Assembly (NCBI RefSeq): GCF_900112765.1
Contig: NZ_FOMZ01000014.1
Location: 62,001-126,000, forward strand
Origin: Actinopolyspora alba
GTDB lineage: Bacteria; Actinomycetota; Actinomycetes; Mycobacteriales; Pseudonocardiaceae
Length of the DNA: 64,000 bases
Direction of reading: 5' to 3'
Positions within the stretch are counted from its first letter, which is position 1. Every line of letters starts with the position of its first letter. Positions 2,395 to 63,918 of this stretch are shown in pieces. The position numbers and the translations under genes are program-made. The notes under the pieces were generated by a model. It was not told where the DNA came from. It searched no databases and saw nothing but the letters and a program-made list of their open reading frames with translations.

Positions 2395-5300
2395 GTGGCG
2401 TTGGCTGACGAGCGCGGAGCGGAACCGCCTCCCGACGAGAACGATGGTGACCACGGAGCGGGCTTCGAACGGCAACCGCCGCAGGACGTGGCCGCCGAGC
2501 AGTCGGTGCTCGGCGGGATGATGTTGAGCAAGGACGCCATCGCCAACGTCGTCGAGGTACTCCAGCCACAGGACTTCTACCGTCCCGCACACCACGTGAT
2601 CTACGAGTGCGTTCTCGATCTGTACGGGCGGGGTGAACCCGCCGACGCGGTCACGGTCTCGGCCGCGCTGGAACGGCGCAACGAGCTCGGCAAGGTCGGC
2701 GGTGGCGCCTACATCCACACGCTGCTCCGGACGGTCCCCACCGCGGCCAACGCCAACTACTACGCCGAGATCGTCTCGGAGAAGGCGGTACTGCGCAGGC
2801 TGGTCGAGGCGGGTACCAGGATCGTCCAGTACGGCTACAACGGTGCCGAGGGTGCCGCGATCGAGGAGGTCGTGGACCGCGCGCAGGCCGCTGTCTACGA
2901 CGTGACCGAACGGCGCACCAGCGAGGACTACGTCGCGCTCGAGGAGCTGCTGCAGCCGACGATGGACGAGATCGACGCCATCGCCTCGCGCGGCGGCGAG
3001 TCGGAGGGGATCCCGACCGGTTTCGTGGATCTGGACGGCGTGACCAACGGGCTGCACCCGGGGCAGATGATCATCGTCGCGGCGCGCCCCGGTGTGGGCA
3101 AGGCGCTGGCGCTGCACACACCGCTGCCCACGCCGGAGGGCTGGACCACCATGGGCGCGGTTTCCGTGGGGGACCCGCTGCTCGGCGCGGACGGCAGACC
3201 GGTCCGGGTGACCGCGGCCACCGAGGTGATGCACGGCCGCGACTGCTACGAGATCGAGTTCTCGGACGGCACGCTGGTGGTCGCCGACGAGCAGCACCAG
3301 TGGAGCCTGCGGGACGGCACCGTGTGCACCACGGCCGGACTCCGCGACAGACTCGGTAACCGGATGGACGTCGAGCTGCCCGATCACGGGCCGTTCTCGC
3401 TGGCACAGCGGGACCTGCCGATCGCGCCCTACCTGCTGGGAGTGTGGCTGGCGGCGGGTGACAAGGCGGGCGAGCTGTCCGGTGTGGCCGAGGACGTACT
3501 GGCCAACTTGGAACCGGACGGCCTGGTACGCGTGAACGACGGGGTCGTGCTCGACGAGGAAACCGCCGCCGAGCTGGCCGAGCTGGGAATTTGGCACGAG
3601 GCCGAGGTACCCGCCGAATACCTGCGCGGTAGTCAGCAGCAACGGCGCTCGCTGCTGGCGGGGCTCGCGGACGCGGCGGGCAGCGTGGGTGAGGACGGCC
3701 GCGTGCTGCTGCGAGTGCGTGAATCCCTTTCGGTGCGGGTTCGCGAGCTCGTCCTCACCCTGGGATACCCGTGCACCGCCACCGTGGACCCGGACTCGGG
3801 CGACGAGATCACCACGCTCGTCGTCTTCGACAGCGGCGAGGACCAGATCTTCCGACGCACCGAACTCGACGACCAGCACAAGCGGAAGCGGAGCGGCGAG
3901 CGTCGCGCACGGGGAATCAGGGCAGTGCGGCGCACCGCGAGCGTCCCGGTGCGCTGCGTGGAGGTCGACTCGCCCGACCGGCTCTACCTCGCGAGCCGGT
4001 CGATGATCCCGACCCACAACTCCACGCTCGGGCTGGACTTCGCCCGCGCCGCCTCGATCAGGAACGGGCTCGGCAGCGTCATCTTCTCGCTGGAGATGGG
4101 CCGCACCGAGATCGTGATGCGCATGCTCTCCGCCGAGGCGCGGATCCGGCTCGGCGACATGCGCGGTGGCCGGATGACCGACGAGGACTGGACCCGCCTC
4201 GCGCGCCGGATGAGCGAGATCAACGAAGCGCCGCTGTTCATCGACGACTCGCCCAACCTGACGATGATGGAGATCCGTGCGAAGGCGCGGCGCCTGAAGC
4301 AGCGCAACGACATCGGCCTGATCGTGGTCGACTACATGCAGCTGATGACCTCGGGCAAGCGGGTCGAGTCCCGACAGCAGGAGGTCTCGGAGTTCTCCCG
4401 GAGCCTCAAGCTGCTGGCCAAGGAGTTGGAGATCCCGGTGGTGGCGATCTCGCAGCTCAACCGTGGTCCGGAACAGCGCAACGATCGCAAGCCGCAGCTG
4501 TCCGACCTGCGTGAGTCGGGCTGTCTGACCGGGGGGACGCGACTGCTGCGGGCCGACGACGGTTCGGAGATCACCTTCGACGAGCTGATGGCAGGGGAGC
4601 AGCGTCCGCTGGTGTGGTCGGTGGACGACCGGCGGCGGATGGTCGCGCGACCGATCACGAACGTGTTCAGCAGCGGCGTCAAGGAGGCGTTCCGCGTCGT
4701 GCTGGCGTCCGGTCGCGAGATCGAGGCCACCGCCAACCACCCGATGTTGACCCCCTGGGGCTGGGCCCCGCTCGGCGAGCTGGCCGAGGGAGCCCACGTC
4801 GGGGTGCCGGGGCGGATTCCGGAACCGCTCGACGCGGAACCGGTGTCGGAGTCCGAAGTGATCTCGCTGGCACGGTCGGCGCTCGACAGCGGCGACGTGC
4901 CGCGCCGGGTGTTCGCACTGCCGCGGGAGCGGCTGGCCGTCTTCCTGCGGCACATCTGGGGGATCACCGGTCCGGAGACACCGGACGCCGACGACGTCCC
5001 GGTCGGGCAGGGGGGATGCGTGGTCACCGGCCGCGCGCTGGCCGACGGGCTCCAACTGCTGCTGTCGCGGTTCACGGTCCACTCCCGCCTACGTCGTCCC
5101 TCCCCGGAGGCGGAACCGGACCGCTGGGAGGTGCTGCTGGACGGGCTCGACAGTCGGCTGCGCTTCACGCGTGAGAGCGCCGGACCGGGTCTCGCGAGTC
5201 GGGTCGTCACGAGTCAGGGGGTAGCGGGCACGGCTCCCGAGCACGCGGTCGCCCGTACCGGCGCGTCCCTCGGTGCGTGCGCGGCCGCAGCAGGAGGCAG

Positions 5301-8851: not shown

Positions 8852-8869
8852 CGATTTCTCGCGAAATCG
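8852..8869. repeat. 18-bp hairpin repeat, copy 1
   Basis: Reads CGATTTCTCGCGAAATCG, the reverse complement of the form seen elsewhere. Seven-base arms flank a four-base centre. It lies 88 bp upstream of the DGPF gene start and 29 bp past the end of the GNAT gene, both read leftward. Confidence 0.8.
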
Positions 8870-17260: not shown

Positions 17261-18413
17261 CTACCGCTCGACCAGCGGCAAGGATGTTCTTCGCGGCGTT
17301 GTGGTCCCGGTCGTGCCGGGTGCCGCAGTCGGGGCACGTCCATGCCCGCGTGGAGAGTGTCAAGCTCGGCAGCAGGTGTCCGCACGCGGAGCACGTCTTG
17401 GACGACGGGTACCACCGGTCCACGACGGCCAGGGTCTTGCCCGCGCGGGTGGTCTTGTATTCCAGCTGGCGCCGGAACTCGCCCAGCGCGGCGTCCATGA
17501 CGGCGCGGTTGAGCCCGGCTTTCGCGCGGACGTTGCGGCCCGGCCGCTCGGTGGTGCCCTTCGCGCTGCTGGTCATGCCGGACACGTTGAGGTCTTCGAT
17601 CGCGATGACATCGGCACGTCGCACGAGGTTCGTGGTGGTGCGGTGCAGGAAATCGGCGCGGGCGTGACGGACCTTCCGGTGCGCCCGCGCCACCTTGCGC
17701 TTGGCTTTGCGCCGGTTCGCGGAACCTTTCTGTGTGCGGGCCATCTGTCGTTGGTAGCGGGCGAGGGTGCGTTCCTTGCGGTCCAGATACTTCGGGTTGG
17801 CGACGGTCTCGCCAGTGGACAGCGTCGCGAAGTCCTTCACGCCCAGGTCGACGCCGAGGGCCTCGCCCGTGCGCGCGGCAGGTTCGGGATCGTCGGTGTC
17901 GACGGCGAACGTCACGTACCAGCGCCCGTCCTGCTCGCGAGAGACCACCACCATCGTCGGGTTGAGGTTCGCGAGGGTGTCGTCATCCCAGGACCACACG
18001 AAGTTCAGCGGCGCCGACTGCTTGGCCAGCGTCAGGTGCCCGTCGCGGAGTGCGAACGCGGAGCGGGTGTAGTGCGCCGACTGTTTGCCGTTGCGGTTTT
18101 TGAACCTCGGGTACTTGGCGCGTCCGGCGAAGAAGTTCGCGAATGCGGTGTGCTGATGCCGCAGGGTCTGTTGCAGCGGCACGCTGGAGACCTCGGACAG
18201 GAACCCCAGGTCCTCAGTCTTCTTCCACCGCGACAGGGCGGCGTCGGTCTCGGTGTAGGACGTTTTCGTGCCCTCGGTGTGGTAGGCGCGGTGCCGCTGG
18301 TCGAGGGTCTTGTTCCACACGAGGCGTACGCACCCGAACGTGCGACCCAACTGGGCCGCCTGGTCCGAGTCCGGGTAGGCCCGGCACTTGTACGCCGTCC
18401 GCATACCGATCAT
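17250..18413 (-). CDS. tnpB: TnpB RNA-guided endonuclease
   Basis: Encodes about 387 residues from the ATG at 18413 (MIGMRTAYKCRAYPD); an ATG three codons later is also possible. RuvC-I Asp is in GVDLGVKDFAT, RuvC-II Glu in IAIEDLNVSGM, and RuvC-III Asp in HDRDHNAAKNIL. The four-Cys zinc finger is CSACGH...CPDCG. All catalytic residues are intact, so the nuclease is probably active. TnpB uses an RNA from the element's right end to cut the donor site and favour retention of the element. Confidence 0.93.
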   Translation of the reverse strand: MIGMRTAYKCRAYPDSDQAAQLGRTFGCVRLVWNKTLDQRHRAYHTEGTKTSYTETDAALSRWKKTEDLGFLSEVSSVPLQQTLRHQHTAFANFFAGRAKYPRFKNRNGKQSAHYTRSAFALRDGHLTLAKQSAPLNFVWSWDDDTLANLNPTMVVVSREQDGRWYVTFAVDTDDPEPAARTGEALGVDLGVKDFATLSTGETVANPKYLDRKERTLARYQRQMARTQKGSANRRKAKRKVARAHRKVRHARADFLHRTTTNLVRRADVIAIEDLNVSGMTSSAKGTTERPGRNVRAKAGLNRAVMDAALGEFRRQLEYKTTRAGKTLAVVDRWYPSSKTCSACGHLLPSLTLSTRAWTCPDCGTRHDRDHNAAKNILAAGRAVAGP

Positions 18414-21821: not shown

Positions 21822-22154
21822 CCGGTGATCGGTTGTGACCGCCGAACGACAGGTCGATTTCACATCCGGCGCGGTCGAAGACGACCAAGAGTACAGGTGT
21901 GCGAGGTACGCATTCGGGCTCACACGCCCGGTTCGGTGAACCGCCTACCGTCGCCACGACTGTCGAAACGGGATCGCGCCGGTCAACCTCGAGCGAGGTG
22001 CCGAGGTTACCCCCTCACCGTCACTTTCCTGCCGTGTTGCCCAAAGACCCTGCTGTGCCGCCGAACGACCCTGCCGTACTGCCGATCGACGTAGCCCGTT
22101 GCCGCCCTGGTTCCGCTGAACGAGCGACCCACCAACCCGGCGGGAAAACTTCGA

Positions 22155-22868
22155 TCAGACACGCTCGAAGATCAGATCGTGCACTTCACGCCCCTCGGAA
22201 TGAGCGCGGTTCTCGAACTTGGTCACCGGTCGCCACTCCGGCCGAGGCGCCCATCCACCCGGAAAGTCCGCCCAGCGGTTCCGCAGGCTCGGTTCCGCCG
22301 TGCAGACCTCCATCATCTGCTCGGCGTAGCTCTCCCAGTCGGTAGCCAGGTGCAGCACGCCACCGGGACGTAACCGCGAGGCGACCAGCGCCACGAAACC
22401 GGGTTGGACCAGCCGTCGCTTGTGATGGCGTTTCTTGGGCCACGGGTCCGGGAAGAAGACGCGCACCTCGCTCAACGTGTCCGCCGAGAAGTGTTCCCGC
22501 AGCAGTACCGTCGCGTCACCACGCAGCAACCGGAGATTGTCGATGCCGAGGTTCTCGGCACGTGCCAGCAACTGGGCCAGCCCGGGCTTGTAGACCTCGA
22601 CGGCCAGGTGGTCGTGCTCCGGCTGGGCCGCGGCCAGCTGTGCCGTCGTCTCCCCCATGCCGGAACCGACCTCCAGCACCAGCGGCGCGGCTCGACCGAA
22701 CCAATCGGTGGTGTCGAGCGGTCCCTCGGGCAGTTCGGAGATGTCGTGGCCGAACTCGTCCCAGTACCGATCCCACGCACGCTGCTGCCCGGTCGTCATC
22801 CGCTCGCCGCGCTGCACGTAACTGACGACCGTGCGGCGGTGTGGAATCTGCTGGTCGGAAGCACTCAC
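22155..22868 (-). CDS. trmB: tRNA (guanine-N7-)-methyltransferase
   Basis: Encodes 237 residues. SAM-binding motif I is LVLEVGSGMGE, and the TrmB signature VRVFFPDPWPKKRHHKRRLVQP is complete. The C-terminal TDWESYAEQMM and FENRAHSEGREVHDLIFERV blocks match the family. It places m7G at position 46 of tRNA variable loops. A GTG start at 22868 gives an N-terminal extension usual for actinobacteria. The 333 bp between this gene's end and the small membrane protein contain no recognisable feature. Confidence 0.95.
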   Translation of the reverse strand: MSASDQQIPHRRTVVSYVQRGERMTTGQQRAWDRYWDEFGHDISELPEGPLDTTDWFGRAAPLVLEVGSGMGETTAQLAAAQPEHDHLAVEVYKPGLAQLLARAENLGIDNLRLLRGDATVLLREHFSADTLSEVRVFFPDPWPKKRHHKRRLVQPGFVALVASRLRPGGVLHLATDWESYAEQMMEVCTAEPSLRNRWADFPGGWAPRPEWRPVTKFENRAHSEGREVHDLIFERV

Positions 22869-33425: not shown

Positions 33426-35302
33426 GCACGAACTCTCCGCTCTCGAACCTGCCTGGTGCCGACGCGGCGGCGGCCTCGCAGCTGCCCACACAGGTGAAGC
33501 AGACCCGGGAGAACCTGACCGCGCTGGTGCGGGAGGTCGACACCGAGGCCGCCGAGTGGATCGAGCGCATCAGGAACTCGCGCACCGCCGTTCCCGGTGT
33601 GGTGGTGGTCGGCGAGACGAATCGGGGAAAGAGTTCACTGGTAAACGCCCTGCTGGACAGCCAGGATCTGTCCCCTGTGGATGCCGATGTGGCCACGTCC
33701 ACCTATCTGTGGTTCCAGCACGGCACCGAGTGGGCCGGTTACGCGTGCTACCCCGGCGAGCAGGAACCGGCACGTTTCGACATCGACGAGCTGGGCGCCT
33801 GGTCCTCGGGAGCGGGCGAACTCCCGGCGGGTGAGCTGCCACCGAGATACATCAGGGTCGACGCTCCGCTGGAACCGCTGCGAGAACTCACGCTGGTTGA
33901 CACACCGGGAGTGGGCGGGCTGCAGGCAGTGCACGGCGAGCTGGCGGCCGAAGCCGCCGCTTCCGCGACCGCGCTGCTGTTCGTGGCGGACGCCTCGGCT
34001 CCGTTCGGTCGCGGCGAGCTGGACTTCCTGCACAGCGTGAGCAATCGTGTGGAAACCGTGCTGTTCGTGCTGACCAAGACGGATCGGCACCGGGGCTGGC
34101 GCAGGGTGCTGGAGGAGAACCGGCAGCTGCTGGCCACGCACGCCCCGCGATTCGCCGAGGTGCCGATATATCCGGTCTCGGCCCGGATGGCCGAACTCGC
34201 CGCACGTGCTTCCGAGCCGGAGAGCGCGGCGATGCTGCGGGAACGCTCCGGTGTGGACGAGCTGCGTTCCGCACTGCGGCAACTGGTCGCCGGTCACTCC
34301 GCGATGCTCGGCGAAGCCAACACCATGCGCGGGATGTCCACGGTGCTCACCGAGATCATCTCCGGCCTGGAGGGTGAGAAACGGGCGCTCACCGCCGGGG
34401 AGAAGGAGGTGGAGTCGCTGCGCACCAGGCGGGAGGAGCTCGCGACGGCACGTCGCTCATCCACCCGGGGTTGGCAGGTCAAGCTGCGCGGGCGGATCCA
34501 GCGCACCCGCGTGGAGACCAGTCACGAGGTCACCGACCGGGTACGTGAGGTGCAGAACTGGTTCCGCCGCGAGATCGAGACCGCCGACCGGGACAAGCTG
34601 GCCCTGCTGCCCGGACAGGTGGACTCGGCGCTGCAGCTGGTCTCGACGCGGGTGGCCACCCTGCTGTCGGGCCGCCTGGACGAGGTGGCCCGTGATTCGC
34701 TGGCAGAACTGTTCGGCGAGGCGGAGCTGAAGGTGATCCGTGCCCAGTTCGCGCGCGGCAACCGCTCCCCGGTGGCGCTGCGTCCGCCGGAGAGCAGGCC
34801 ACCCACCGCCGAGGACAAACTGCTGGTCTTCATGGGCGTTTCCGGCGGGCTGGGAATCGGCCGCGCCGCGGCGATGCCACTGGCCGGTCTCGGGGTCGGA
34901 GCGCTGAATCCGGTGGTGCTGCCGGTGACGATCGTGCTGGGACTCGGGGCAGGCTGGTGGATGGCCCGCACCCGCAAGCACGCGGCCGACAAGCAGCACA
35001 TGAAGCAGTGGCTCAGCGACGCGATCTCCGAAGCGCGCTCGGCACTGGACCAACTGGTCTCCGAGCAGCTCATCGAGGCGGAACAGCAGTTGTCGCTCGC
35101 GCTCGACGAGGCGCTGAGCAAGCGGATGGAATCGATCGAGAGCGAACTCCGCGAGATCGACCAGGCGCTGAAGCTGGACTCGGCGGAGCGCAACCGGCAG
35201 TTGCAGCTGGTCAACCGCAGGTTGGAGGAGGCGGTTTCCGGCAGGGACAACGTGGAGCGGTTGCTGGAACGGATACGCGGACTTCGCGACCGCTCCGGGT
35301 GA
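33422..35302 (+). CDS. Dynamin-like GTPase with membrane hairpin (IniA/DynA-like)
   Basis: Encodes 626 residues. G1 is VVVGETNRGKSSLVNAL (about 61-75), G3 is LVDTPGVGG and G4 is LTKTD. Two adjacent hydrophobic segments (about 470-525, GGLGIGRAAAMPLAGLGVGA and VLPVTIVLGLGAGWWMA) can form the membrane paddle. Coiled-coil helices flank them, and the C-terminal 100 residues are strongly helical. This is the larger partner of the pair. Expected role: GTP-driven membrane remodelling or protection at the septum or during membrane stress. Confidence 0.9.
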   Translation: MSTNSPLSNLPGADAAAASQLPTQVKQTRENLTALVREVDTEAAEWIERIRNSRTAVPGVVVVGETNRGKSSLVNALLDSQDLSPVDADVATSTYLWFQHGTEWAGYACYPGEQEPARFDIDELGAWSSGAGELPAGELPPRYIRVDAPLEPLRELTLVDTPGVGGLQAVHGELAAEAAASATALLFVADASAPFGRGELDFLHSVSNRVETVLFVLTKTDRHRGWRRVLEENRQLLATHAPRFAEVPIYPVSARMAELAARASEPESAAMLRERSGVDELRSALRQLVAGHSAMLGEANTMRGMSTVLTEIISGLEGEKRALTAGEKEVESLRTRREELATARRSSTRGWQVKLRGRIQRTRVETSHEVTDRVREVQNWFRREIETADRDKLALLPGQVDSALQLVSTRVATLLSGRLDEVARDSLAELFGEAELKVIRAQFARGNRSPVALRPPESRPPTAEDKLLVFMGVSGGLGIGRAAAMPLAGLGVGALNPVVLPVTIVLGLGAGWWMARTRKHAADKQHMKQWLSDAISEARSALDQLVSEQLIEAEQQLSLALDEALSKRMESIESELREIDQALKLDSAERNRQLQLVNRRLEEAVSGRDNVERLLERIRGLRDRSG

Positions 35303-35334
35303 ATTCGGGAGTACCCGTCCGGGGTGCCGAAGGG

Positions 35335-35512
35335 GCTCACTCAGCGGAACCTCTGGCACGGCTCTCGCCGCGGGCGCCCCGACATCGAGTAGTTACTACG
35401 CCACGTCGGGGCCGTCCTCGCGAGAGCCGCACCGGAGACCCCGCGGCGGTGCGAGCCGCGGGGGTGGTCGGGGTTCGGCCTGTGTAGGTGGTGGGAGTGC
35501 GGCTTGCGTGGT
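35335..35512 (-). repeat. Structured intergenic element, copy B, with tandem 24-bp units
   Basis: Outer stem GGCTCTCG (35360) / CGAGAGCC (35421), inner stem CCCCGAC (35377) / GTCGGGG (35405), and inside that GTAG-TTA-CTAC. It is oriented opposite to copies A and C. After it come two 24-bp units starting GTGGTCGGGGTTCGG and GTGGTGGGAGTGCGG (35465-35512), which copy C also carries. Confidence 0.8.
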
Positions 35513-35610
35513 GGGAGCCCCTGGAACACACCCGGGGAATCGACGCCCACACCGGTGACACCGGCGCCGTGTCGCTCGTGGTCACTTCCCGACAGCGGTC
35601 CCGAGCCCGG

Positions 35611-35628
35611 CGATTTCGCGAGAAATCG
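35611..35628. repeat. 18-bp hairpin repeat, copy 3
   Basis: CGATTTCGCGAGAAATCG, perfect arms. First of a pair; the second starts 51 bp later. Confidence 0.85.
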
Positions 35629-35661
35629 ACAGACACGGGGCACCCCGCAGCACCGGCCCGG

Positions 35662-35679
35662 CGATTTCGCGAGAAATCG
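35662..35679. repeat. 18-bp hairpin repeat, copy 4
   Basis: CGATTTCGCGAGAAATCG, same orientation as copy 3. Both lie in the 776-bp gene-free stretch between the dynamin operon and desA, which also holds element B and the iron boxes. Confidence 0.85.
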
Positions 35680-35911
35680 ACGCCGCAGTCACGGCGGTTC
35701 GAGCACGGCTGAGCGGCTACAGGGGACCCGACGCGCGACTCCTCTTCCCACTTCCGCTTCCCACTCTCCGGGAGAGCGACCGGCCGCGTCGGGTATTCAC
35801 TTCCGGGTAATCGCCGGTGAACCGCGCCGCGACAACGACACCGCCACTCGACGACACCGCCACTCGACCGATCGTCCGACGTGAACGGACTCACGCCACA
35901 GCGAGCGCGAT

Positions 35912-35951
35912 ATAGGTTAGCCTAAGTTCACAGAAAATTAGGCTAACCTAA
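35912..35951. promoter_or_regulatory. Two tandem iron boxes before desA
   Basis: Two 19-bp sites centred on GGTTAGCCTAA (35912-35930) and TTAGGCTAACCTAA (35933-35951) each match about 15 of 19 bases of the DmdR/IdeR consensus TTAGGTTAGSCTAACCTAA. They lie about 130 bp before the desA start. Iron-loaded repressor should shut the operon off when iron is plentiful. Confidence 0.88.
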
Positions 35952-36078
35952 TTCCACACGGTCGCGACGCGCCGGACACGGTGGCTGACCTCGCAACGAG
36001 GAACTCGAAGCCGCGATGCGGCGCACGACCCCGACAGACCATCCGGCATCGCACACCCCGCACCGAGGAGGACGGTTC

Positions 36079-37644
36079 GTGAGTTTCCTCGTACCACCGG
36101 CCGAGCAGACCGCTGCGACATCGGCACAGTCCGTCGACCCCAAGTCGTACCTGCTGGACGAACACAACACCGAGCAGTACCGCGATTCGGTGACCGAAGG
36201 GGTACAGCGGGTGATCGGCGAACTCCTGGACCCGGGCCACCAGCCCACCACCGGAGTCACCCCCGATCAGCTCGGACCGGTCATCGGCGGAATCGACCTG
36301 GACGAACCGTTGCCGGACACCAAGAGCGCGCTCGACGAGCTGGAACGGGTCTACCTGCACGATGCCGTCTACTTCCAGCACCCGCGCTACCTGGCCCACC
36401 TCAACTGCCCGATCGTCATTCCCGCCCTGCTCGGCGAAGCGATCGGCTCGGCGATCAACTCCTCACTGGACACCTGGGACCAGAGCGCGGGCGGCACGCT
36501 CATCGAGCGGCGGCTGATCGACTGGACCACGGCCCGCATCGGCTTCGGTTCGACCGCGGACGGGATATTCACCAGCGGCGGCACCCAGTCCAACCTGCAG
36601 GGACTGTTCGTCGCCCGGGAGCAGGCACTGCAACGACACGCGGCGGAGAGCGGAACCGGGGATCCGGAGACCGACCGCGCCGAACAGCTGTCGCGACTGC
36701 GCGTCCTCGCCTCGGCCGACAGTCACTTCAGCGTCGTCAAAGCGGCGAAACTGCTGGGCATGGGTGCTGATTCGGTGCTGACCGTGCCCACCGACGAGCA
36801 CCGGCGCATGCGGACCGACGAGCTGCACGAGCGGCTGCGGAGCTGCCACGAGGCGGGACTGACCACGATGGCCGTGGTGGCCACGGCGGGCACCACCGAC
36901 TTCGGCAGCATCGACCCGCTCTCCGAGATCGCGGCGCTGTGCGAGCGGTTCGGGGTGTGGCTGCACGTGGACGCGGCATACGGCTGCGGTCTGCTGGTCT
37001 CGCGGGAGAGCGCCCGGTTGGACGGGATCGAGCGCGCCGACTCGGTGATCGTGGACTACCACAAGTCGTTCTTCCAGCCGGTGAGTTCCAGCGCGGTACT
37101 CGTGCGGGACGGCTCCGTGCTGCGGCACGCCACCTACCACGCGGACTACCTGAACCCGGAGCGCCACGTGGCCGAGCGGGTTCCGAACCAGGTGGACAAG
37201 AGCATCCAGACCACCAGGCGGTTCGACGCGCTCAAACTGTGGCTGACCCTGCGGATCATGGGGCCGGACGCGCTCGGACGGCTCTTCGACGACGTGCTGG
37301 ACCTGGCCGAGCGCACCTGGGAGATGCTGCGGGCCGATCCGCGCTTCGAAGTGGTCAACCGTCCCGAGCTGAGCGCCCTGGTGTTCCGCTACGTACCCGC
37401 CGCGGACGCGGACGGACAGCTCTGCGACCGGGTCAACCTGCACGCGCGCGACGCGCTGTACCGCTCGGGTGCCGCGATGGTGGCCGAGACGGTCGTCGAC
37501 GGGAACACCTACCTGAAGTTCACCCTGCTCAACCCGCGCACCACGCTGCGGGACATCGCCGAGGTGTGCGAGCTCATCGTCGAACACGGCAACCGGTACC
37601 TGACCGGCACGCCCGAGGCGGAGTCCGAACGCCGTGCGAGCTGA
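36079..37644 (+). CDS. desA: PLP-dependent lysine decarboxylase for desferrioxamine synthesis
   Basis: Encodes 521 residues from GTG with GAGGAGGAC upstream. The group II decarboxylase fold has TSGGTQSNLQGLF, HVDAAYGCG and the PLP-binding Lys329 in VDYHKSFFQP. In des clusters this enzyme converts L-lysine to cadaverine, the first step of desferrioxamine. A diaminobutyrate decarboxylase role is the alternative from sequence alone, but the desBCD order supports lysine. Iron boxes upstream predict repression by iron. Confidence 0.93.
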   Translation: MSFLVPPAEQTAATSAQSVDPKSYLLDEHNTEQYRDSVTEGVQRVIGELLDPGHQPTTGVTPDQLGPVIGGIDLDEPLPDTKSALDELERVYLHDAVYFQHPRYLAHLNCPIVIPALLGEAIGSAINSSLDTWDQSAGGTLIERRLIDWTTARIGFGSTADGIFTSGGTQSNLQGLFVAREQALQRHAAESGTGDPETDRAEQLSRLRVLASADSHFSVVKAAKLLGMGADSVLTVPTDEHRRMRTDELHERLRSCHEAGLTTMAVVATAGTTDFGSIDPLSEIAALCERFGVWLHVDAAYGCGLLVSRESARLDGIERADSVIVDYHKSFFQPVSSSAVLVRDGSVLRHATYHADYLNPERHVAERVPNQVDKSIQTTRRFDALKLWLTLRIMGPDALGRLFDDVLDLAERTWEMLRADPRFEVVNRPELSALVFRYVPAADADGQLCDRVNLHARDALYRSGAAMVAETVVDGNTYLKFTLLNPRTTLRDIAEVCELIVEHGNRYLTGTPEAESERRAS

Positions 37645-41416: not shown

Positions 41417-41479
41417 GGAGCCATGGCGGAGCTCGCGTCGGTGGTCGGTTAGCCGCCCGCGTGGTTAGCAACTCAAGGT

Positions 41480-41519
41480 CGCGGGGCGCGTGGCGTGGTG
41501 GCACGCGATGTGCCCCGCG
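41480..41519 (+). terminator. Hairpin terminator after desD
   Basis: CGCGGGGC (41480) pairs with GCCCCGCG (41512), with a further CGTG/CACG pairing inside. It starts 63 bp after the desD stop. Confidence 0.6.
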
Positions 41520-41601
41520 ATCTCGCGAAACTCCCGATGCGCACCCCACCGGTACGGTTTCCGATAATCAACGAAAAATCCCGACCGGAAAAACACCTGG
41601 A

Positions 41602-41844
41602 ATGAACGAACAAGATCCCCAAGCAACAGGATCACTTCACGTCGAGTGGTCCTGGGACAAACGTGCCAACGCCGCGGTTTTCAAGTTCGGCGGGAAACTT
41701 TCGGGCAACCCTGCCGAGACGCTGGAGGTGCGCGGCAAAAACGATGAAACGGTCGCGCTTCTCGATTTCTCGAACGACGGCGAACTGTTGAACCTGGAGC
41801 TGCTGGACGCGGAAAAGCACATGCCGCGTTCATGTCGGGATTGA
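41602..41844 (+). CDS. Small DUF2283-like protein
   Basis: Encodes 80 residues. WDKRANAAVFKFGGKLSG near the start and VALLDFSNDGELLNLELLDA later resemble DUF2283 domains, short beta-rich proteins with no known reaction that are often near toxin-antitoxin-like genes. AT-rich upstream DNA and the codon pattern differ a little from neighbours. The ATG has only a weak ribosome site (CCTGGA). Probably a separate unit from the des operon because a hairpin intervenes. Confidence 0.55.
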   Translation: MNEQDPQATGSLHVEWSWDKRANAAVFKFGGKLSGNPAETLEVRGKNDETVALLDFSNDGELLNLELLDAEKHMPRSCRD

Positions 41845-42003
41845 GATCCGGTCCTGCTCGGTAACGACTCGTCGAGCCTGTGCGCAGCGTCGAGCGGGAT
41901 CGAGTCGTGGCGGACACGCGGCGAACCCGGCCTGTTCCGAAGCCGGGGTCACCCGTGATCATCCGAAGGAGTACCGCGACCGGCCGGAGGGCAGGTCCAC
42001 CGG

Positions 42004-43044
42004 TCAGTTGTCGATCGGGAAACGCAGCAGCGCTCCGACGCCCTCGGCCAGGCCGGTGCCGGACTCCACCAGATCGGCGCGGGCGCCGGTCTCGGCACAC
42101 GCCTTGAGCAGGAACGCCTCGCGCTCGGTTCCGGTGCCGTACTCCAGCAGCAGGGTGTCCACCGCGCCCATCTCGGCGGCGCGGGCCACCGGGTGGTCAC
42201 CGTGCACTGCCTGCCCGTGCGCCAGTCCCGAGTTGAGCTGCTCGGCGCGTTCCCGCGCGTTGCGGGCGCTCTCCTTCTCGGCGATCTCGCGCAGCTGTTC
42301 TGCCAGTGCCTGCTCCGCGGCCTCGTCCTGGTTACCGCCACGATCGGCGTCCACGCGCAGCTCGGCCAGCCGCTCGGTCAGCTTCTCGCGCACCATGCTG
42401 CGGGCCTGCGTCTCGCCTGCCAGCACCAGCAACCGCGGCCGGAACTCGGCCTCGATGGTGCGCAGTCGCGAGACGATCTCCTCGACGTTGTGCTCGACGG
42501 CCTGCTCGGCACGGCGCTGCAGCCGTTTGTGCGACAGGGCCTGGCCACGGGGTTTGTGCGTGTCGGTCTCGGCGCCGCCCTCGACGGTCTCGCTACCCAG
42601 CTCCCGGGGGTGGTGCTGCTGGGCCAGGACCTCCTGCCGCACCACCGCCCCCTGCTCGTCGGCGATGACCACCAGCATCCGCACCGAGCGGCACTCCTCG
42701 CGCACGTACGCGCCCAGTTCCGGCAGCCGCGTCCAGTACTGCGCGTCACCGGCCCCCAGGGCGGCGTCCCACGGCTCGGCGAGCAGCACCCCGGCGTTCT
42801 CGGTCGCCACCAGCACACGCCCGTTGGCCTGCTCCTCGCCGTACTCGACATTCAGCACGCTCGCTTCGAGCGCGTCCAGCACCGCGTCACCGGCTCCGGC
42901 GCCTGCCAGCCGTTCCCTGAGGTCACGCCACCGCAGTCGCAGCTGCTCGCTCGACTCCTCGCTCGGCGAGCGTCCCTCCAGGTACACCGTGGCGAACGGT
43001 CCCTCGCTCTCGTAGACCGACCGCAGCCGCGTCAAGTCCATCAT
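42004..43044 (-). CDS. Rv2629/baeRF2-like release-factor-related protein (possible Balon-type hibernation factor)
   Basis: Encodes 346 residues. The N-terminal domain (VYESEGPFATVYLEGRSP) and middle domain (VLVATENAGVLL, EECRSVRMLVVIADEQGAVVR) are followed by an eRF1/Vms1-like domain (LGSETVEGG, QRRAEQAVEHNVEEIVSRL) and a C-terminal eL30-like part (MGAVDTLLLEY). This is the Rv2629 family, related to archaeo-eukaryotic release factors. A homologue, Balon, binds the ribosomal A site in stationary or cold-stressed cells. The catalytic GGQ loop is absent, as expected for that role. GAGGGGAACG precedes tandem ATGs at 43044 and 43041. Confidence 0.8.
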   Translation of the reverse strand: MMDLTRLRSVYESEGPFATVYLEGRSPSEESSEQLRLRWRDLRERLAGAGAGDAVLDALEASVLNVEYGEEQANGRVLVATENAGVLLAEPWDAALGAGDAQYWTRLPELGAYVREECRSVRMLVVIADEQGAVVRQEVLAQQHHPRELGSETVEGGAETDTHKPRGQALSHKRLQRRAEQAVEHNVEEIVSRLRTIEAEFRPRLLVLAGETQARSMVREKLTERLAELRVDADRGGNQDEAAEQALAEQLREIAEKESARNARERAEQLNSGLAHGQAVHGDHPVARAAEMGAVDTLLLEYGTGTEREAFLLKACAETGARADLVESGTGLAEGVGALLRFPIDN

Positions 43045-62039: not shown

Positions 62040-63563
62040 ATGGCACAACTCAAGAACTTCCCGCTTCCGGACGTCGGTGAAGGGCTGACCGAGGCGGAGA
62101 TTCTGAACTGGCGGATCGGGCCCGGTGACGCGGTCGAGCTGAACCAGATCATCGTGGAGATCGAGACCGCGAAGGCATCGGTCGAGCTGCCGTGCCCCTA
62201 CGCGGGGACTATCAGCGAGCTGCTCGCCGAACCCGGCCAGACCGTGGAGGTCGGAACCCCGATCCTCACGATCGAGCCGGCCGGTGCGGAGAGCGACGAG
62301 TCGGAACCGGACAAGCCCGCGGAGCGGGGCGAGCGGTCCGAGCAGGGCGGCAAGATCGGCGAGGAAGGTGCCGACGGCCGGATCGCCACCCTGGTGGGGT
62401 ACGGCCCGCGCTCGACCAGCGCGAAACGCCGCCCCCGCAAGAAGGACGCCACCGCCGGGCAGCGCGGCGGCTCCGACAGCGGTGGATCCAACGGCTCGGC
62501 CGGGCAACGGCCCGCCTCCAACGGCACTCCGGTGCCGACCGGCGCGGGCACCGACGGCGCGGGCACCAACGGCACCGCGGTGAACGGCTCCGCCCCCGCC
62601 ACGAGCACGCCGTCCGCTTCCCGGCAGGCCGAGTCGGCCGCGGGCGGCACCGGCGTCGCAGCGGGCGGCGGAGTGCCGCTCGCGAAACCGCCGGTGCGCA
62701 AACTGGCCAAGGACCTCGGCGTGGAGCTGCGTTCGCTGCACGGCTCCGGCTCGGGTGGCGTGATCACCAGGCAGGACGTGGAACGCGCGGCGGCGGGCGG
62801 CGTCACGGCCGCGGCCTCCGAGGGCCCCGCTGCCGGATCCCTGGCGGCTCGGGACAGCGCCGAGCGGGAGCACCGGGTTCCGATCAAGGGGGTCCGGAAG
62901 GCGACGGCGCAGGCCATGGTGGACAGCGCGTTCACCGCCCCGCACGTGACCGAGTTCCTGACGATCGACGTCACTCCGATGATGGAGTTCCGGGAGCGGC
63001 TCAAGAAGCACCCCGACTTCCGGGACGTCAAGGTCACACCGCTGGCGATCGCGTCCAAGGCGATGTGCCTGGCCGCGAAGCGGACACCGGACGTCAACGC
63101 CGCCTGGGACGGTGAGGCGGGCGAGATCGTCTACAAGGACTACGTGCACCTGGGTGTGGCCGCGGCCACCGACCGCGGCCTGGTCGTGCCCAAGGTCCGC
63201 GACGCGGACGGGATGTCACTGCGGGAACTGGCCGTGGCGCTGGAGGAGCTGACCAGCACCGCCCGTGAGGGCAGGACCTCGCCGGAGGCGATGACCAACG
63301 GCACGATCACGATCACGAACGTGGGCGTGTTCGGGGTGGACACCGGGACGCCGATCCTCAACCCGGGCGAGTCGGCGATCCTGGCGTTCGGCGCCATCCG
63401 CGAGATGCCCTGGGTGGTCGACGGCCAGGTGGTGCCGCGTCAGGTCTGCCAGCTGGCGCTGAGCTTCGACCACCGGGTGGTGGACGGCCAGCAGGGCTCG
63501 CGGTTCCTCGCCGACGTCGGATCGATACTGTCCGATCCGGGGATGGCCCTGACGTTCGGGTAG
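62040..63563 (+). CDS. bkdC: 2-oxoacid dehydrogenase E2 acyltransferase
   Basis: Encodes 507 residues. One lipoyl domain (1-78) with lipoyl Lys45 in EIETAKASVELP. A long Gly/Ser/Ala/Thr linker (about 80-215) leads to the peripheral subunit-binding domain (KPPVRKLAKDLGVELRSLHG) and the catalytic domain (about 280-507) with LSFDHRVVDGQQGSRFL. It passes the acyl group to CoA. E3 is not encoded here. GAGGGAG precedes the ATG. A perfect hairpin follows. Confidence 0.94.
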   Translation: MAQLKNFPLPDVGEGLTEAEILNWRIGPGDAVELNQIIVEIETAKASVELPCPYAGTISELLAEPGQTVEVGTPILTIEPAGAESDESEPDKPAERGERSEQGGKIGEEGADGRIATLVGYGPRSTSAKRRPRKKDATAGQRGGSDSGGSNGSAGQRPASNGTPVPTGAGTDGAGTNGTAVNGSAPATSTPSASRQAESAAGGTGVAAGGGVPLAKPPVRKLAKDLGVELRSLHGSGSGGVITRQDVERAAAGGVTAAASEGPAAGSLAARDSAEREHRVPIKGVRKATAQAMVDSAFTAPHVTEFLTIDVTPMMEFRERLKKHPDFRDVKVTPLAIASKAMCLAAKRTPDVNAAWDGEAGEIVYKDYVHLGVAAATDRGLVVPKVRDADGMSLRELAVALEELTSTAREGRTSPEAMTNGTITITNVGVFGVDTGTPILNPGESAILAFGAIREMPWVVDGQVVPRQVCQLALSFDHRVVDGQQGSRFLADVGSILSDPGMALTFG

Positions 63564-63603: not shown

Positions 63604-63639
63604 GACTCACGTGCCGGGTCGGCTACCGGCACGTGAGTC
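63604..63639 (+). terminator. Hairpin terminator after bkdC
   Basis: GACTCACGTGCCGG and its exact complement enclose an 8-nt loop, starting 40 bp after the stop. Confidence 0.85.
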
Positions 63640-63656
63640 GGCCTCCACCGGGGCGT

Positions 63657-63728: not shown

Positions 63729-63747
63729 ACGGGCCAGCAGTGCCGAC

Positions 63748-63918
63748 GAACAGCCGCACTCCCACCACTCCCGTAAGCCGCACTCCGACCACTCTCGCAG
63801 TCGGCACCGCCGCGGGTTCTCCGGTGCGGCTCTCGCGAGGACGGCCCCGACGTCGTGTAGGTCGCTACCCGATGTCGGGGCACCCGCAGCGAGAGCCGTG
63901 CGGGAGGTTCCGCCACCC
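63748..63918 (+). repeat. Structured intergenic element, copy C, with tandem 24-bp units
   Basis: Outer stem GGCTCTCG (63828) / CGAGAGCC (63890), inner stem CCCCGAC (63845) / GTCGGGG (63874), and inside GTAG-GTCG-CTAC. The tandem 24-bp units seen beside copy B lie on its left side here (63748-63797), consistent with its opposite orientation. No gene is visible from 63564 to the end of the window. Confidence 0.8.

Follow-up and report, generated by a model that had tools for sequence, protein, structure and literature searches.

Structured hairpin elements dispersed closely behind stop codons in Actinopolyspora and other Pseudonocardiaceae

The window, the whole 64,000-nucleotide stretch of Actinopolyspora alba DNA that was analysed, carries three copies (A, B and C) of a dispersed structured repeat (Table 1). 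Copy B follows a gene for a dynamin-like GTPase, orthologues of which are present in all 10 of the 10 Actinopolyspora genomes compared. It is an imperfect palindrome of about 110 nt with GTAG-loop-CTAC at its tip and two 24-bp units 3' of the core. A preliminary description, made from the sequence of this stretch, had taken B and C to be inverted copies of one element, and the alignment bears this out: they are identical at 137 of 162 positions (85%) in opposite orientation. B and A are identical at 89 of 113 positions (79%), and A, like C, lies on the strand opposite to B. Both orientations occur because each of A, B and C follows a gene on its own strand, at distances of 328, 39 and 39 nt, respectively. 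The two tandem 24-bp units said to be common to B and C could be located in both, those of B being identical to each other at 18 of 24 positions. The inner stem also keeps its GTAG and CTAC around a varying loop, as had been described; the loop is TTA in B and is longer and different in C.

Table 1. Positions of element copies, remnants and neighboring features in the 64-kb window
Feature	Position	Strand	Basis or remark
Remnant of family I left end (unit + CAGCGGAACC)	22109-22144	-	10 nt after stop of gene 22155-22817
Copy A core	24187-24075	-	71.4 bits; 328 nt from same-strand gene 24516-25265
Gene upstream of copy B, dynamin-like GTPase, 626 aa	33422-35302	+	Open reading frame; stop TGA 35300-35302; Pfam Dynamin_N, E = 9.8e-15
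Left flank of B, degenerate 24-bp-like unit, family consensus CGGCTCGGTTTGCGTGGGTGGTCGCG	35316-35341	+	Weak conservation in 83 stop-proximal copies
Copy B core: 4-bp clamp, 3x3 internal loop, long stem, GTAG-loop-CTAC tip	35342-35453	+	R1 125.9 bits on +, 58.7 on -; folding
Hairpin tip of B, GTAG-TTA-CTAC (GTAG 35389-35392, CTAC 35396-35399)	35389-35399	+	Sequence
Two tandem 24-bp units of B (35464-35487 and 35488-35511)	35464-35511	+	Sequence; B/C alignment
Second short palindrome GGCGATTTCGCGAGAAATCGAC, two copies (35605-35630 and 35656-35681)	35605-35681	+	
Left end of truncated family II hairpin	63624-63642	+	60 nt after stop of gene 62040-63563
24-bp units of copy C	63745-63792	-	Alignment with B
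Copy C core	63915-63803	-	126.8 bits; 39 nt after called same-strand gene past window end

For the plus strand of B the folding energy is -73.2 kcal/mol, compared with a shuffle mean of -53.7 (z = -4.9; none of 200 shuffles was as good), and its minus strand gives z = -5.2. The folds of C and A on their own strands are less striking (z = -2.8 and -2.0). No Rfam match to the element was found in the window, or at three element-bearing loci at E <= 1; two weak matches lie elsewhere. Two other features of the window were observed. A match to RF02743 (Sernc389, 'Saccharopolyspora sRNA 389', antisense; 235.8 bits) lies at 17623-18211 on the plus strand, and an inverted repeat at 35913-35950 (TAGGTTAGCCTAAGTT/AAATTAGGCTAACCTA), which resembles an iron box, precedes a decarboxylase gene and an IucA/IucC siderophore gene.

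The element is present in many copies in the genome (5.24 Mb, 42 contigs). In a first DNA search 40 of 236 candidates were scored, and a covariance model (R1) was built from 30 copies of this genome. R1 gave at least 130 matches at E <= 0.01; 150 of 8605 candidates were scored, and the copy number is therefore a lower bound. Removal of 3 opposite-strand duplicates and the 7 weakest matches left a working set of 120 copies, at least 110 of which score above 80 bits. The ends do not vary at random among copies. The left side is fixed, the structure is conserved, and the right side varies in its number of 24-bp units. Among the individual copies, two are hybrids of two subtypes (C32:227358 and C32:364370), and one (C30:263192-263305, positions 3494-3614 of locus L148) is an almost perfect palindrome, as if template switching had copied one arm onto the other. 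Loci L098 and L109 (C19:234648 and C25:36338) hold near-identical gene-plus-element units, with upstream proteins 94% identical and both elements 27 nt after the stop; this pair is a recent duplication. Loci L137 and L146 (C30:7544 and C30:217706) have in common a foreign left end (CCGGTTCGAACCAGT...); it is similar to the T-arm of tRNA genes and is fused to the hairpin behind an element of a second family (family II, described below).

Genes were called with a simple codon-bias script in 93 stretches around the copies outside the window. None of the 120 copies lies inside a called gene, and 99 of them lie behind a gene on the same strand; copy C, at 39 nt, makes a hundredth. The start of the element falls 26-49 nt after the stop codon in 83 of the 99 same-strand copies (median, 36 nt; s.d., 3.9), compared with 8.6 copies predicted by uniform placing in the same gaps and a maximum of 21 in 20000 simulations. 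On the downstream side, none of the 99 copies falls in the 26-49 nt range. Some 10 nt separate the stop from the conserved left flank. With a matrix of this flank, scores above 9 were obtained for 68 of 91 element-bearing flanks, in every case at 0-19 nt after the stop, compared with 23 of 263 flanks without an element and 18 of 263 reversed controls. The downstream neighbor of the 99 same-strand copies is a convergent gene in 55 cases and a same-strand gene in 44. Of the 100 divergent gaps measuring 100 nt or more in the stretches retrieved, 7 contain the element.

The copies that depart from this spacing fall into several groups. Sixteen same-strand copies lie more than 60 nt out, and 11 of these follow a family II hairpin that is itself 27-34 nt after the stop. 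Another 21 of the 120 copies (20 once the out-of-window neighbor of C is counted) have no called same-strand gene upstream. For nine of these 21, the distance to the called start of a divergent gene is 38-59 nt; several of these genes have a visible ribosome-binding site, and the simple 3'-UTR reading does not account for the nine copies. A tRNA scan of 21 loci, comprising loci without a same-strand gene and a few others, found a tRNA in 4, none within 1 kb of the element. A common function of the flanking genes was also considered, and 8 proteins of the window gave no common theme.

A second short hairpin accompanies the element, with the sequence GATTTCGCGAGAAATC in Actinopolyspora and AAGCGGC...GCCGCTT in other genera. 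The window holds 12 such palindromes (for example at 8854, 29893, 45356, 49004 and 63659), a rate that corresponds to about a thousand per genome, and 176 were found in 824 kb, none of them inside a called gene. Measured from the core, they lie at distances that increase in steps of about 24 nt. On a larger scale the copies are spread unevenly in some relatives. In the Actinopolyspora genome G009, a chromosome arc of 1.29 Mb (14030-1304232) holds none of at least 129 matches (150 of 8265 candidates scored), and among the matches listed G006 and G003 each have a long copy-free stretch, too.

A second hairpin family shares the plan of the first. Family II, with the sequence AGCCGGCACGTGAGTCGGC ... 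TTGAGTAG-loop-CTACGC ... CCGACTCACGCACCGG, likewise has a 4-bp clamp, a 3x3 loop, a stem, a GAGTAG/CTAC tip and a similar left flank. It starts 24-42 nt after a same-strand stop at 19 of 28 places in the stretches searched, several of them truncated. One family replaces the other at the same place in different species. At a convergent gene pair (window 41417-42003), family I lies behind the right-hand gene in G009, G005 and G008. Behind the left-hand gene, G003 has family I, G008 has family II, G009 has the left part of family II, and G005 has the left half of family I fused to family II; the own species and G004 have traces only. This mix at one gene pair indicates that hairpins were exchanged and lost while the distance from the stop was kept. 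A gene with a bacterial archaeo-eukaryotic release factor domain (baeRF family 2; 42004-43044, minus strand) lies beside the IucA/IucC gene at this convergent site.

Turnover is also seen behind the gene that precedes copy B, where the element is found in the own species, G005, G009, G004 and G003, and half of it in G008. The hairpin subtypes differ between species whose flanking protein is 96-97% identical. The element is absent in 4 of the 10 genomes (G001, G006, G002 and G007), where the region differs altogether. One "empty" site was checked closely and is a deletion remnant. At the site of the family I remnant at 22109-22144, a full, degenerate element is present in G003 and G008.

Outside this genome, a pattern scan returned at least 117 stretches, 80 of them with titles, from many species of Saccharopolyspora and from Actinopolyspora, Amycolatopsis, Sciscionella and Halopolyspora. 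Five unrelated taxa among the matches were taken for chance matches, three of them lying inside called genes. A phage origin was considered and set aside; 18 matches lie in viral contigs, and a pattern of 18 fixed bases and 19 gap lengths allows chance matches. With a model built from 50 sequences, at least 31 of 120 Pseudonocardiaceae genomes and at least 12 of 46 genera were positive (33 candidates scored per genome, with stricter filters). A start 24-49 nt after a same-strand stop was found for 14 of the 17 Actinopolyspora matches listed, for 34 of the 63 listed in the four other genera, and for 18 of 37 further matches. A few copies in other genomes overlap called genes. In S. hirsuta, 9 of 12 copies fall outside the 24-49 nt range. 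The left flank of these nine is long and nearly identical from copy to copy, a pattern like that left by a recent burst of movement. The genes in front of the element differ among genera: none of 47 upstream proteins across genera matches any of the 83 own ones above 54% identity, and in other Actinopolyspora species 10 of 27 match one of these 83 at 76% identity or more.

Base pairing is conserved across genera. For this analysis 50 sequences were aligned, comprising 40 named loci from the pattern search (at most 2 per species) and ten R1 loci, and covering the five named genera and further genomes. The search pattern fixes the 18 outermost letters, and those columns therefore prove nothing about pairing. 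Standard pairs occupy 94.2% of the pair cells, 1390 of 1550 cells being Watson-Crick with few wobbles, and when the partner is slid by 1-3 columns only 39-51% are paired. Compensatory double changes occur at 21 of 31 base pairs. The double-changed cells number 237, compared with a shuffle mean of 70, and none of 500 shuffles reaches 237. At the three positions of the 3x3 loop, Watson-Crick pairs are rare: they occur in 2, 0 and 4, respectively, of 114 own copies (6 sequences unparsed) and in 0 of 37 copies in other genomes. The loop bases are conserved in the own copies.

The best case for selection on pairing is provided by copies behind gatB in one genus (g50), in which four species have a single detectable copy apiece (150 candidates scored per species). 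In three of the four, the copy lies behind gatB, at 13 nt from the called stop instead of 36. The 104-nt cores of G091 and G118 differ at four positions, which together make up two compensated pairs; the copy of G138 has many more differences, at paired and unpaired positions. Since there is only one detectable copy per genome, exchange between copies is unlikely to explain the compensated changes. Correction of the palindrome by template switching could explain them but should also have removed the 3x3 loop. We regard the evidence for selection on pairing as strong.

Our leading interpretation, which we hold with moderate confidence, is that these sequences form a family of structured gene-end (3'-UTR) elements that act as a non-canonical 3'-end element. 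The element is a hairpin of about 110 nt with conserved internal loops, with 24-bp units on its flanks and a short second hairpin behind it, and it lies most often about 36 nt after a stop codon, in the sense orientation. It would be transcribed as part of the 3' UTR and fold there, and it may have a role in 3'-end formation or mRNA stability. Its copies would have multiplied and been homogenized by exchange between copies, and been lost by deletion. The preliminary description had offered an RNA gene or a MITE-like element. Its duplicated structured unit stands, and the compensatory changes across genera and the sense placement just after stops favor RNA. The observed spacing is broken by the S. 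hirsuta burst copies and by the gatB copy at 13 nt, and these count against a gene-end reading. So do the more stable fold of the minus strand, the lack of a U tract at B, the copies that have no called same-strand gene upstream, the few overlaps with called genes in other genomes and the different upstream genes in different genera.

Comparison with known elements shows similarities to several of them. ERIC, NEMIS/Correia and MIRU-type elements are intergenic repeats of roughly 50-150 nt, several of which form imperfect palindromes in transcribed regions. In contrast to these, judged by their descriptions, our element shows stop-codon spacing and cross-genus covariation, belongs to another lineage, and yielded no target-site duplication. 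Integron attC sites are also long imperfect hairpins behind stop codons. The present element, unlike them, is dispersed and does not lie in cassette arrays, and no integron integrase (TIGR02249) scored over the cut-off in the 10 Actinopolyspora genomes, the weaker matches to other tyrosine recombinases being found in all 10 and in 14 of 14 controls. Reverse transcriptase (PF00078) was detected in 1 of the 10 genomes of the genus (G002) and was absent from the own genome. Both the attC and the reverse-transcriptase routes were rejected, as their partner genes are missing.

The REP and terminator comparisons are closer. REPs are hairpins of 20-40 nt with GTAG or CGTC at one end (PMC3733652), and in E. 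coli 446 of 4072 REPs lie within 15 nt of a stop codon (PMC12306157). Our element resembles REP/BIME sequences as a high-copy extragenic palindrome with a GTAG motif and an imperfect GC-rich stem, some copies of which lie close behind stops; it differs in its length of about 110 nt, in carrying GTAG at the hairpin tip instead of the end, in its narrow stop spacing and in lacking a consistent Y1 partner. Streptomyces transcripts end at medians of 66-76 nt past the coding sequence and have the longest and most stable hairpins and the least U enrichment of the species studied (PMC12207403), and terminator stems of B. cereus evolve by compensation (PMC5381666). The element is similar to intrinsic terminators of GC-rich actinomycetes in that it is a GC-rich hairpin tens of nucleotides past the stop of the gene that closes a unit (as judged from the order of the genes), shows compensatory evolution and has little U tract, as in Streptomyces. 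It differs from them in the conservation of sequence in both arms and internal loops, in its dispersed repeat families, in the 24-bp units on both sides and in the lack of a U tract at B, where no U tract or terminator was called at any site in 35250-36100. The element is REP-like in habit and terminator-like in place, and by test is a member of neither group. No description of it was found in the literature searched, including the accessible portions of PMC12306157, PMC3733652, PMC3610266, PMC12207403 and PMC5381666, with subscription papers outside the scope of the search.

A further possibility, on which we are doubtful, is that the elements are interchangeable gene-end cassettes. Recombination would exchange hairpins of at least two families, which have a left unit and a tip in common, from gene to gene, in most cases at a constant distance of about 36 nt from the stop. 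These bacteria would then have a modular, replaceable 3'-UTR RNA whose function depends on its distance from the terminating ribosome. The gatB copy at 13 nt from the stop lowers the probability of this reading.

Equally tentative is an origin as a non-autonomous mobile element of a MITE-, REP- or satellite-like kind that is mobilized in trans, in which the surviving copies are those that landed just outside genes and the hairpin is the recognition site of the mobilizing protein. The high copy number, the groups of near-equal scores within single species and the presence of the element behind the same gene in six of ten species and its absence in four are consistent with it, as are the long flanks common to nine S. 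hirsuta copies, none of which lies at the stop-codon position, and the GTAG tip motif found in the REP GTAG families (PMC3733652). However, the check for target-site duplications that had been proposed with the MITE-like reading found none that stand out at any constant boundary pair of the 120 copies. Over 37800 length/boundary combinations the strongest excess was 6 compared with 0.8 expected, and the next was 9 compared with 2.4; the variable right end could hide some. A MITE with target-site duplications is thus unsupported at constant boundaries, and the MITE-like reading is not supported in its original form: the closely checked "empty" site is a deletion remnant and not a clean empty site, and orientation mostly tracks the upstream gene. 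A REP/RAYT system was rejected, too. The Y1 transposase (PF01797, RAYT type not distinguished) occurs in 8 of 10 Actinopolyspora genomes and is absent from G002 and G008, both of which have many copies, and it is therefore not required. In addition, a spacing of 36 nt with an s.d. of 3.9 seems tighter than insertion plus selection would give, and a copy kept with compensatory changes only is unexpected of a dead insertion. In our judgment a structured gene-end RNA is more probable than a simple jumping element, with the reservation that the recently multiplied subset in S. hirsuta may reflect mobility of some kind.

It is improbable, in our view, that the element is primarily a DNA site, that is, a cruciform or single-strand hairpin bound by a recombination, nucleoid or chromosome-organization protein. 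Pairing kept with so few wobbles would suit such a site, as would the conserved loop bases and the uneven spread exemplified by the copy-free arc of G009, and the near-perfect palindromization of one copy together with the hybrid copies suggests template switching at the DNA level. But nothing in such a role calls for a sense orientation or a position some 36 nt past a stop codon, and inspection of the matches listed, with no formal test, revealed no obvious strand rule along the chromosome.

The choice of strand bears on the remaining alternative. In 115 of 120 own copies by RNA parameters, and in 98 of 120 by DNA parameters, the minus strand has the more stable fold, because A/C internal loops of the plus strand become G.U on the minus strand. 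In a wobble test of the own copies (stem positions 3-6 and 10-15), the plus strand has G.T 65 times and A.C 3 times; 51 of the 65 are at one pair, and without position 13 the counts are 14 and 3. The cross-genus test is weak or contrary, with 15 G.T and 9 A.C in chosen helices, and 19 G.T and 41 A.C at all pairs but the conserved G.U one, many of these A.C being register differences. The plus strand is, in our view, the likelier structured strand. A dispersed small-RNA gene or antisense RNA read from the minus strand, for which stability speaks, is very improbable, since the A/C loops explain that stability, the spacing is tied to the stop of the upstream gene, the own-copy wobbles favor the plus strand, no Rfam family matches, and no promoter-like site was found around B with the sigma-70 consensus.

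If the element is a structured gene-end RNA, a mode of action can be proposed. As RNA polymerase passes the stop codon, the left unit and the hairpin would emerge, at about 36 nt clear of the terminating ribosome. The hairpin, aided by the short second hairpin, would then make or protect the 3' end; it might stop or slow RNA polymerase without a U tract, shield the mRNA from 3'-5' decay, or both, and it may also keep out convergent transcripts.

Were this reading true, some genes in a family of antibiotic-producing actinomycetes would end in a large conserved RNA structure, missing from Rfam 15, at a near-fixed distance from the stop. This would bear on two questions: how GC-rich bacteria that have few U tracts end their transcripts, and what causes palindromic repeats to accumulate behind stop codons. 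With the gatB-linked copy, the element becomes testable by a single deletion.
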